A stretch of DNA of 64,000 bases from an uncultured Alphaproteobacteria bacterium (GTDB lineage Bacteria; Pseudomonadota; Alphaproteobacteria; GCA-2731375), in contig CATOSZ010000003.1 of the NCBI GenBank assembly GCA_951812805.1, forward strand, positions 512,557 to 576,556, written 5' to 3'. The translations under genes were made by a program, and so were the position numbers. Under the pieces are notes generated by a model that worked only from the letters and a program-made list of their open reading frames with translations, had not been told where the DNA came from and did not search any database. This document shows positions 53,820-59,604 of the stretch, piece by piece (position 1 is the stretch's first letter; each line of letters opens with the position of its first letter).

Positions 53820-54568
53820 GCGGTGCCCGAACGTTCGAACCGGGGGCCTACCGCTACGTCCCCGGTCCGTTCCAGTATTCGGGCGGCGTCGCGGCCGAAC
53901 CGGACCATGGGATCGAGCGGGTGCGCTTTCGCGATCCGCCCGGCATCGCCGAGGGCTTCCAGCGCATCGAGGCACACCTGACGGACATCGGCCGCCCGCT
54001 CACCGCGTTCTGCGCTTGCGAGCTGCGCTCGCCCGCGCCGTTCACCGACCAAGGCTTCATCGACTTCAACCGGGTCTATGTCGGCACGCTGGAACGCTGG
54101 GGCATCTTCCGCGACGACGACAATCCGGTCGCCCGCTCCAACGTCTGCCCGGAGATCGATCCACCGGACGAGCCGCGCTTCGAAGCCTTCTGCTACACGG
54201 TGCCGCGGCCGGGCGCGGCGGGTTCGGAGTTCCATATCGCCGGCTCCGGCGAGGCGCCGGAGGGGCCCGGCAGCTATGCCGAGCGGATCATCCGTCTCGA
54301 CGACCAGTCGGCCGAGGCGATGGCGGAAAAGGCCCGCTATGTGCTGGGCGAGATGGAGCGGCGCATGGGCATCCTCGGCGTCGGCTGGGCCGGCGCCACG
54401 ACGACCCAGGTCTATTCGGTGTACGACATCCATCCCTTCCTCGCGGAGGAGATCATCGCGCGCGGCGCGGCGCCCGCCGGCCTCACCTGGTACTACGCCC
54501 GCCCGCCGGTTCGGGGCCTCGACTACGAGATGGACCTGCGCGGCATCGGCGTCGAACGTTTGCTCTGA
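53816..54568 (+). CDS. Protein of unknown function, co-translated with PhyH
   Basis: The protein is 250 aa from GTG 53816, 4 bp into the PhyH stop. No signal peptide or membrane helix is visible. It has a conserved-looking central segment (FNRVYVGTLERWGIFRDDDN, FCACELRSPAPFTDQG) and ends RPPVRGLDYEMDLRGIGVER. The overall alpha/beta pattern is vaguely like the RidA-type fold, but no catalytic residues can be named. The tight overlap suggests a complex or pathway step with PhyH. Confidence 0.65.
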   Translation: MSGARTFEPGAYRYVPGPFQYSGGVAAEPDHGIERVRFRDPPGIAEGFQRIEAHLTDIGRPLTAFCACELRSPAPFTDQGFIDFNRVYVGTLERWGIFRDDDNPVARSNVCPEIDPPDEPRFEAFCYTVPRPGAAGSEFHIAGSGEAPEGPGSYAERIIRLDDQSAEAMAEKARYVLGEMERRMGILGVGWAGATTTQVYSVYDIHPFLAEEIIARGAAPAGLTWYYARPPVRGLDYEMDLRGIGVERLL

Positions 54569-56737: not shown

Positions 56738-57496
56738 ATGGACTTGCAGTTGAACGGCAGAACCGCCCTGGTGACCGGGGCGAGCATCGGCATCGGCGTG
56801 GCGATCGCGCATGAACTGGCGGCGGAGGGTTGCCGCCTGGCGATCCTGGCCCGGCGCGAGGGCCTGTTGAACGGCGTCGCGGACGCAATCGCCGCGACCG
56901 GCGCGCCCCGCCCGCTGGTCGTCGTCGAAGACCTGACCGCGGACGGCATGGCGGCGCGCGTCGGCGCCCGCATCGAGGACGGGCTCGGCCCACTCGACAT
57001 CCTGGTTAACAACGCGGGCGGCAGCCGCCCGATGGACGGCCTCGGCACCGAAGACGAATGGTCGGAGGCCATGATGCTCAACTACATCTCCGCCCGTCGC
57101 CTGGCGCATACCTTCGTGCCGGGCATGCGACAGCGCGGCTTCGGGCGCATCGTCAACGTCACCGGCGGGGACGAGCCGGCGGGCATGAACGCGGCGGTAC
57201 CGCCGAACGGCGCCATCCATCTCTGGGCCAAAGCCCTCAGCCGCGAGGTCGGCGGCGACGGCGTCACCGTCAATTCGATCCCGCCCGGCCGCATCCACTC
57301 CGAACAGATCGACCAGCGCCTGCTGCCGACAGCGGCGGCGCAGCAGGCCTGGGTCGACGCCAACTGCCCGGCCGGCTATATCGGCGAGGCGGAAGATCTC
57401 GCCGGGCTGGTGGCCTTCCTGGCCTCGCCCCGGGCGCGCTATATCACGGGTCAGGTAATCCATGTCGACGGCGGCGCACGACGCTACGCCTTCTGA
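56738..57496 (+). CDS. SDR-family protein with altered catalytic residues
   Basis: The protein is 252 aa. The cofactor motif is TGASIGIGVAIAHEL and NNAG is LVNNAGGSRPMDG. The catalytic region departs from the classical scheme: Ser is in VNVTGGDEPAG (no SS), and the Tyr position of YxxxK reads HLWAK (NGAIHLWAKALSRE), so Tyr is His and Lys is kept. The C-terminal GQVIHVDGGARRYAF is normal. It may have a shifted mechanism, a non-catalytic role or a different substrate. It lies directly upstream of the nitrile-hydratase-like genes. Confidence 0.82.
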   Translation: MDLQLNGRTALVTGASIGIGVAIAHELAAEGCRLAILARREGLLNGVADAIAATGAPRPLVVVEDLTADGMAARVGARIEDGLGPLDILVNNAGGSRPMDGLGTEDEWSEAMMLNYISARRLAHTFVPGMRQRGFGRIVNVTGGDEPAGMNAAVPPNGAIHLWAKALSREVGGDGVTVNSIPPGRIHSEQIDQRLLPTAAAQQAWVDANCPAGYIGEAEDLAGLVAFLASPRARYITGQVIHVDGGARRYAF

Positions 57497-57507
57497 GGAG
57501 GACGGGA

Positions 57508-57837
57508 ATGACGACCAATCGGGCGATCAGCGATCTCGGCGGCCTGCCCGCGGGACCGATCGACACGCACGAACACGAAGCCACCCTGGTGGAACGGCGC
57601 ATCGACGCCATGATGATGCTGCTTCGCGCCAAGCCCCGGGCCTTCTGGGTGACCGACGAGAACCGTCGCACCATCGAAAGCCTGACGCCGGAATTCTACG
57701 AAGGCTCCGCCTACTACGAGCGTTGGGTGACGGCAATGCGGGCCCTGTTGATCGAAAAGGGCGTGCTGGACGAAGCCGAGATCGAGGCCAAGCTCGCCGA
57801 AGTGCGTGCCCGGTACGCGGCGGGAGGTGCAGCATGA
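57508..57837 (+). CDS. Nitrile hydratase beta-subunit N-terminal part (separate gene)
   Basis: The protein is 109 aa. It matches the N-terminal half of the NHase beta subunit: a DLGG-like start (RAISDLGGLPAGPIDTHEHE) and the helical segment YYERWVTAMRALLIEKGVLD, followed by an Ala-rich end. The corresponding half is a separate polypeptide in thiocyanate hydrolase and in three-subunit NHases. It overlaps the next gene by 4 bp (ATGA), so stoichiometric synthesis is expected. ATG 57508 has GAGGACGGGA upstream. Confidence 0.78.
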   Translation: MTTNRAISDLGGLPAGPIDTHEHEATLVERRIDAMMMLLRAKPRAFWVTDENRRTIESLTPEFYEGSAYYERWVTAMRALLIEKGVLDEAEIEAKLAEVRARYAAGGAA

Positions 57838-58118
57838 GCCGCTTCGCGGTCGGCCAGCGCGTCCGCGTCGCCGAGGCGCAGCCGCCGGGCCATGTCCGCA
57901 CGCCGCAATTCCTGCGCGGGCGCGACGGCGTCGTCCTGCGTCATTTCGGCGCCTTCCCCAATCCCGAACGGCTGGCCTACGGCATGGACGGCCGGCCGGC
58001 CCTCGACCTCTATCAGGTGCTGTTCACCATGGACGAGGTCTGGGCGGGCGAGGGCGCCTATGCGCCCCGCGATACGGTGACCGCGGACATCTACGAAAGC
58101 TGGCTGGAGGCGATATGA
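57834..58118 (+). CDS. Nitrile hydratase beta-subunit C-terminal part (separate gene)
   Basis: The protein is 94 aa. It matches the SH3-like barrel of the NHase beta C-terminus: FAVGQRVRVAEAQPPGHVRT, RGRDGVVLRHFGAF and YQVLFTMDEVWAGEGA. It supplies the second part of the subunit that covers the metal site of the alpha subunit. It overlaps both neighbours by ATGA junctions. The layout N-half, C-half, alpha is like scnB-scnA-scnC of thiocyanate hydrolase. Confidence 0.8.
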   Translation: MSRFAVGQRVRVAEAQPPGHVRTPQFLRGRDGVVLRHFGAFPNPERLAYGMDGRPALDLYQVLFTMDEVWAGEGAYAPRDTVTADIYESWLEAI

Positions 58119-58765
58119 GCACGCACACCCACGATCATGACCATGATCACGACCACACCACCTTCCAGCCCGACATCAAGGACCCCTCGCAGGAGTGGGA
58201 GTTCCTGGAGATCGCGCTGCGCGAGCTGCTGATCGAAAAACAGATCCTGAGCGCCCGCGAGATCGCCGACGAAATGGAGGCCTGGGAGCGGAAGTCGCCC
58301 GAGGCCGGCGCCCGGGTCGTCGCCCGCGCCTGGTGCGACGACGGGTTCCGCCAACGTCTTCTGGCGGACGCCAACTCCGCCGTCGCCGAACTCGGCGTCG
58401 AAATCGAATCGGTCGAGCTGATCGCGGTGGAGAACACGGCGGACCTGCATCACATGGTGGTCTGCACGCTCTGTTCCTGCTATCCGCGCGGCCTGCTGGG
58501 GGTCCCGCCGCTCTGGTACAAGAGCTTCGAATATCGCAGCCGCGCGGTGCGCGAGCCGCGCGCCGTCCTCGCCGAATTCGGCACGGAACTCGCCGATTCG
58601 GTCGAGGTTCGCGTGCTCGATTCGACCGCGGATTGCCGCCACCTGGTGATTCCCGCCCGGCCCGCCGGCACCGAAGGGCTGAGCGAGGACGCGCTCGCGG
58701 CGCTGGTCGGCCGGGACAGCTTGATCGGCACGGCGCTGGCCCGTGCCCCGCACGGGGAGGCGTGA
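58115..58765 (+). CDS. Nitrile hydratase / thiocyanate hydrolase-type metal subunit with His/Asp-rich N-terminus
   Basis: The protein is 216 aa. The claw-setting motif [14 protein letters not shown] is present: two backbone amides and three Cys that in the family are oxidised to sulfinate and sulfenate. Thr in CTLCSC marks the cobalt-type form. Further conserved are [20 protein letters not shown] and [11 protein letters not shown]. The N-terminus has alternating His and Asp ([14 protein letters not shown]), which could bind cobalt and replace a separate activator. The family hydrates nitriles to amides, or hydrolyses thiocyanate. The substrate is unknown; the operon context suggests an organic cyano compound. 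Confidence 0.85.
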
Positions 58766-58770
58766 GAGCC

Positions 58771-59604
58771 ATGGCTGAACTCGAGGGGAAGGTTGCCGTC
58801 GTCACCGGCGGGGCGAGCGGGATCGGCGAAGCGACGGTTCGCCTCTTCGTCGCGGAGGGCGCGCGCGTCGTCATCGCCGACATGCAGCGCGACCGGGGCG
58901 AGGCACTGGCCGCGGAACTCGGCGCGCCCGCCACCTTCGTCGCTTGCGAAGTCCGTCAGGAAGACCAGGTGAAGGCGACGATCGATGCGGCCGTCGGCAT
59001 CTGGGGCCGGCTCGACTGTCTCTTCAACAACGCGGGCTTCGGCGGCGTGCTGGGCCCGGTCGAGGACATCCCGGCCGACGAGTTCGACATGACCTTCGAC
59101 GTGCTGGTGCGCGGCGTCTTCCTCGGCATGAAGCACGCGGTGCCGGTGATGAAGGGCCAGGGCGGCGGCTCGATCATCAATACCGGCTCGATCGCGGGCG
59201 TGGCCGCGGGGCGCGGGCCGCTGGTCTATTCCGCGGCCAAGGCCGCCGTCGTGCACCTCTCGAAAGCGGCGGCGATGGAGCTGGGCGAACATTCGATCCG
59301 CTGCAACGCCGTCTGCCCGGGCTATATCGCCACGCCGCTTGCCCTCAACACGGTCGGCCGGCCGGACAGCCTGATCGAGGAGCGGATCGACGGCTACGCC
59401 GAACGCCAGCCGATCCCCCGGGTCGGCCGGCCGGACGACATCGCCAACATGGCGCTCTATCTGGCGAGCGATCGTTCCAGCTTCGTCACCGGTCAGGCGA
59501 TCGTCGTCGATGGCGGCGCCGTCACCGGCGTCATGTGGTCGGACCAGAAACCGGTCTACAAGAGCTATCATCCGATCAAGGTCTACAACCCGGACCGGGC
59601 ATGA
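58771..59604 (+). CDS. SDR-family NAD(P)-dependent oxidoreductase
   Basis: The protein is 277 aa, slightly long because of a C-terminal extension ([18 protein letters not shown]). Classical motifs are [18 protein letters not shown] ([10 protein letters not shown]), catalytic Ser in INTGSIAG and YSAAK (YxxxK), and the C-terminal [13 protein letters not shown]. Asp in IADMQRD suggests NAD. It is 5 bp after the alpha-type subunit gene and overlaps the acyl-CoA dehydrogenase gene by 4 bp. Confidence 0.9.

Follow-up and report, generated by a model that had tools for sequence, protein, structure and literature searches.

Three short genes lie in tandem on the forward strand of the window, by which is meant the whole 64,000-nucleotide stretch of alphaproteobacterial DNA analysed here. 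The first (57508-57837, 109 aa) encodes βN, a free-standing counterpart of the N-terminal half of the β subunit of nitrile hydratase (NHase), which resembles the β subunit of thiocyanate hydrolase (SCNase) or AnhD (PF21006, NHase_beta_N, 4.3e-17). The second (57834-58118, 94 aa) encodes βC, the separate C-terminal half, which resembles SCNase α or AnhE (PF02211, NHase_beta_C, 1e-20), and the third (58115-58765, 216 aa) encodes the metal subunit, a homologue of NHase α and SCNase γ (PF02979, NHase_alpha, 3e-75). All three domains score above their gathering cut-offs and, with the C-x-L-C-S-C motif, place the enzyme in the NHase/SCNase superfamily. An ATGA overlap is present at both the βN/βC and the βC/α junctions, so that coordinates and Pfam alike bear out the preliminary description of this DNA, with identical gene boundaries, in which three overlapping genes with β split in two precede and include the metal subunit.

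The top PDB match of βN is SCNase β (2dd4_B, 1.1e-7), βC matches residues 129-217 of NHase β at 3e-17 and SCNase α (2dd4_A) at 7.6e-6, and the top-scoring chains for the metal subunit are Co-NHases. For the metal subunit, an AlphaFold2 model (pLDDT 82.7, with low confidence for the His/Asp-rich N-terminus) compares with NHase α at a Z score of 26.4 and with SCNase γ at 24.5. The metal-binding motif VCTLCSC, encoded on the forward strand at 58460-58480 and recognised earlier as being of Co type, is found in 90 of 94 split relatives and predicts a cobalt rather than an iron enzyme.

The operon is flanked by two SDR oxidoreductase genes on the same strand (both PF13561). The upstream one (56738-57496) ends 11 nt before βN and is probably transcribed together with the three NHase-like genes, while the other (58771-59604) lies just 3' of α. 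Further neighbours encode a transporter, luciferase-like oxidoreductases, dioxygenases, a CoA-transferase, an acyl-CoA dehydrogenase and a PfkB kinase; as already remarked in the preliminary description, neither an amidase nor an activator gene is found among the neighbours in the window by Pfam. An ORF at 53825-54565 has no Pfam match, and a 72% identical protein adjoins the split operon of locus L131. The host genome (7.4 Mb, 98.5% complete) contains a second βN-βC-α operon on another contig, whose α is 58% identical and also has a His-rich N-terminus; these two operons account for all NHase α and βN matches across the genome. No gene for a NicO-type nickel/cobalt transporter is present in the host genome, despite the predicted cobalt requirement.

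Curated family models assign the metal subunit to neither established group. With TIGR01323 (NHase α) it scores 242.3, under the cut-off of 249.85, while the relatives L001, L005 and L009 reach 255-262; with TIGR03887 (SCNase γ) it attains 190.6 bits, 100 bits short of the cut-off of 291.45, compared to 383-391 for the true SCNases L037 and L042. Since such models place its members as NHases or just under the cut-off, the branch escapes notice.

A survey of genome contigs and of 385 genomes from the class of the window yielded 159 loci, which were classified by domain order. Split-type loci make up 94 of these, and the same compact βN-βC-α order in 91 of the 94 indicates that the three-gene arrangement is not a matter of chance. 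The other three (L121, L131 and L156) lack part of the set nearby; at L121, about 2.6 kb separates βC from α, as if the operon had taken an insertion. At L124, an additional βN gene lies about 1.2 kb upstream of a complete split operon. Fifty loci have α followed by a fused β, 43 of them in strict α-β-activator order, and the remainder comprise β-α loci, SCNases, βN-α fusions and one actinobacterial split enzyme. Of the 385 genomes sampled from the class, 71 or more carry the split type, around a fifth (one genome that entered the set solely as a relative is not counted); it occurs in Beta- and Gammaproteobacteria as well. The preliminary description had seen here the architecture of thiocyanate hydrolase and of a few natural-product NHases: the resemblance to SCNase holds, but the implied rarity does not, given this spread and the second copy in the host. 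A search of the open literature turned up no paper on this branch of proteobacterial enzymes.

No gene recurs as a constant partner across most split loci, and none of the operon partners fixes the substrate of the split enzyme. Isochorismatase-like genes lie near 9 of 94 split loci vs 0 of 57 canonical ones, and PEP-mutase-like genes near 11 of 94 vs 0 of 57, a weak enrichment on uncorrected figures, drawn from shorter stretches in the canonical case and best taken as no more than a hint. The nearest relative, L101 (α 73% identical), lies among genes for ABC and TRAP-type transport and PEP-mutase-like and isochorismatase-like proteins, functions that were assigned by eye; a catabolic setting is possible there.

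Trees were used to place the enzyme relative to NHases and SCNases. The α tree has 93 rows, with ToyJ, ScNHase AnhA and eukaryotic NHases left out. In it, a branch with 100/99 support sets all two-subunit NHases, together with the actinobacterial split group, to one side; SCNases form a 100/100 clade on a long branch, outside which falls L223, an actinobacterial row labelled as SCNase; and the window's type sits, poorly resolved, between the two. Concatenation of α, βN and βC (70 rows, 387 columns) separates the two-subunit NHases from the window's type plus SCNases at 100/100, the window's type being a single group with weak support (72/40). Constraining the window enzyme to group with two-subunit NHases is rejected by the AU test (p-AU 0.014). 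In the βN tree, based on only 94 columns, the window's type forms one group (99/94) apart from SCNases, two-subunit NHases and activators. The metal subunit phylogeny proposed as a check in the preliminary description thus finds no clustering inside the two-subunit clade: the enzyme falls on the SCNase side, apart from the two-subunit NHases, yet is probably not an SCNase itself. Its lineage is apparently a large, unnamed branch of the superfamily.

Directly after CSCYP, at the position of SCNase γ Arg136 and NHase α Trp116, the window enzyme has Arg125 (codon 58487-58489, forward strand). Split enzymes have Arg here in 82 cases, Lys in three and Val in nine (n=94); SCNases have Arg, and the α-β NHases Trp (47) or Phe (3; n=50). 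This position has been singled out by structural biologists, since the mutants of PDB entries 3vyg (SCNase R136W) and 3vyh (NHase αW116R) are altered at exactly this point. In βN, codons 57664-57669 (forward strand) encode Arg53, equivalent to the strictly conserved βArg52 of NHases, and Arg54, equivalent to Arg92 of 2dd4_B; the latter position is Arg or Lys in 83 of 93 split enzymes and His, Phe, Tyr or another residue in two-subunit NHases. The equivalent of SCNase Arg90 (2dd4_B) is Asn52 in the window and mostly Leu in its relatives. An SCNase-like arginine pair, as first framed, was therefore rejected on residue numbering: the equivalents of Arg92 and γ Arg136 are shared with SCNase, that of Arg90 is not. 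The SCNase-type Arg after CSCYP suggests that the substrate may be a small anionic nitrile.

The absence of an activator, earlier noted for the neighbourhood, extends genome-wide. TIGR03889 had no match in the host genome nor anywhere in the controls, and was replaced by two profiles from our own activator alignments, A5 for NHase activators and A6 for SCNase activators, each with positive controls. Among 65 genomes with the split type, 14 gave a strong A5 match (>60 bits), and all 14 also contain a two-subunit NHase α, as judged by architecture or profile score. In the genomes with the split type only, the host included, A5 found no activator in 51 of 51, while all 11 genomes with two-subunit NHase only matched strongly and 25 of 25 with two-subunit NHase were positive overall. 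With A6, nothing exceeded 26 bits in 34 split-type genomes, compared to matches of 1e-57 to 1e-94 in three of three SCNase genomes. PF21006 counts agree with these results, which establish absence for two types of activator, P14K/NhlE and P15K. The weak A5 matches in the 51 genomes are their own βN genes (G029 also having a spare βN copy), and the A6 matches, where placed, are likewise βN; these weak matches indicate that βN is homologous to the activators. The actinobacterial split enzymes also have neither activator nor His tail. These three-gene NHases (L040, L209-L212) lie inside the two-subunit clade, L040 and L210-L212 as a nested 100/99 group, and represent a second, separate activator-free split.

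The metal subunit starts with a His/Asp-rich extension of 16 residues (58115-58162, forward strand), evident in the sequence and conserved in relatives. A 12-residue part of it was originally described as a tail; it is in fact the N-terminus of the third gene and not C-terminal. Nor is it unusual, as had been supposed. The first genome scan used the pattern H[DH]HDHDH, biasing counts of tails, and loci found by that pattern were accordingly excluded; at least five His in 15 residues near the start of α then occur in 72 of 84 split loci and in 16 of 33 α-β NHases. SCNase γ of T. thioparus also starts with a His/Asp tail. As a specific mark of the split type the tail was rejected, being still common in both types after removal of the biased loci. 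Bacterial proteins in which a linker rich in His and Asp joins βN to α, reminiscent of the fused eukaryotic enzyme, were seen at four loci (L031, 5539-6540; L164; L166; L173), where βC is not adjacent but is present in each genome searched.

The suggestion that this tail might load cobalt in place of an activator is improbable. Its greater frequency in split enzymes than in α-β NHases and the existence of natural βN-His-α fusions favour it. However, the same tail is carried by SCNase γ and by many NHases that have activators: the T. thioparus SCNase operon includes an activator gene (PMC7193024), as seen in the present set at L037/L038. Conversely, the activator-free actinobacterial split enzymes have almost no His at the start of α, and the His17 linker of the eukaryotic NHase from Monosiga brevicollis is reported to be unnecessary for metal incorporation (PMC7193024). 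Because it is common in enzymes that have activators, the tail does not explain independence of them; it is a family habit and a poor account of that independence.

The reading we prefer, with a probability of roughly 0.55, is of a non-corrin Co(III) enzyme with three subunits, belonging to the NHase/SCNase superfamily but to a lineage distinct from both two-subunit NHases and SCNase, in which βN would do the job of the activator and the substrate would be a small, probably anionic nitrile. Gene identity, the split β, the Co motif, the lack of a known activator, the separate lineage and the replacement of Trp by Arg are computed results; from them we infer the maturation and the substrate. Free βN most likely doubles as a cobalt-loading chaperone. 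In Streptomyces canus ScNHase (genes anhD-anhE-anhA, no activator) the complex AnhD2A activates the apoenzyme, acting as a metal and swapping chaperone, with cobalt entering α under reducing conditions (PMC7329996). With βN and activators homologous, and the activator missing, the simplest reading is that the subunits share out the work as they do in ScNHase. By analogy, βN subunits would bind apo-α, helping cobalt to enter and the cysteines to be oxidised, and the loaded α would then be swapped into the βN-βC-α complex, making βN, like AnhD, both structural subunit and maturation chaperone. The His/Asp N-terminus would at most concentrate metal and be dispensable. Co(III) with oxidised cysteines would hydrate the nitrile at its C-N triple bond, giving the amide; thiocyanate as substrate would give COS and ammonia. 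The main counter-example is SCNase, which is split yet has an activator gene, so that splitting alone does not abolish the need for one. The ScNHase mechanism, moreover, may not transfer, since the actinobacterial split enzymes taken as ScNHase type fall in another clade, nested among the two-subunit NHases.

Other accounts differ over identity or over maturation. That this is a true thiocyanate hydrolase whose maturation has become relaxed is unlikely: the gene order is identical, the Arg after CSCYP and the second βN Arg are shared and the two enzymes lie on the same side of the tree, but the TIGR03887 score falls far short, SCNases occupy their own long-branched clade, βN groups apart, and both the SCNase-type activator and the Arg90 equivalent are missing. 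We consider it equally doubtful that this is an ordinary broad-range NHase whose β gene has merely been split. The Co-NHase structures that score best against the metal subunit and the TIGR01323 score just below cut-off speak for it; against it are the AU test, the Arg in place of Trp, and a lineage too wide and deep for one recent splitting event. A general cellular metal chaperone, of CobW/COG0523 type or other, might instead mature the enzyme, Fe-type NHases being known to employ a COG0523 partner; this is rather less probable again, no CobW/COG0523-type gene adjoining the operon in the window. Returning to βN as chaperone, a broader form of that reading is put forward tentatively: a third, unnamed branch, possibly ancestral, in which free βN would be both half-subunit and cobalt chaperone for enzymes of small anionic nitriles, and activators would be copies of βN kept after fusion of βN with βC.

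As industrial catalysts, NHases are hampered by having to be expressed together with an activator. An activator-free branch that is widespread in nature and has the SCNase-type arginine at the active-site motif would supply many possibly self-maturing enzymes for trial, and would open to experiment both the origin of the activator and the basis of the choice between nitrile and thiocyanate. The function of this branch is predicted from sequence.

Among known systems, the β-α fusion NHase of Monosiga brevicollis, whose sequence is outside the tree, shares a His-rich stretch before α and the lack of a known activator, but is a single fused chain. Two-subunit Co-NHases (Pseudonocardia thermophila, Pseudomonas putida) have the same fold, VCTLCSC and the conserved βArg52 and tyrosines; they differ in the fused β, the activator gene, the Trp after CSCYP and their position across the 100/100 branch. 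ScNHase and the Streptomyces rimosus toyocamycin NHase have the βN-βC-α order and Co-type motif of the window, and ScNHase also shares a genome without activator. L040 and L209-L212, taken as ScNHase type on account of their architecture and of the AnhD primer start (MARINDVG), the ScNHase and TNHase sequences themselves being outside the tree, differ in lying inside the two-subunit clade, in Leu or Ile after CSCYP and in having almost no His tail. Actinobacterial SCNase-type loci with βN and βC fused (L042, L224-L238, e.g. Mycolicibacterium) mostly have an activator-like gene adjoining. Thiocyanate hydrolase itself (T. thioparus ScnBAC, 2dd4) is set apart by its own activator, βN Arg90 and separate 100/100 clade, yet shares with the window enzyme the split β, the gene order, the His/Asp N-terminus, the Arg after CSCYP and the second βN Arg.
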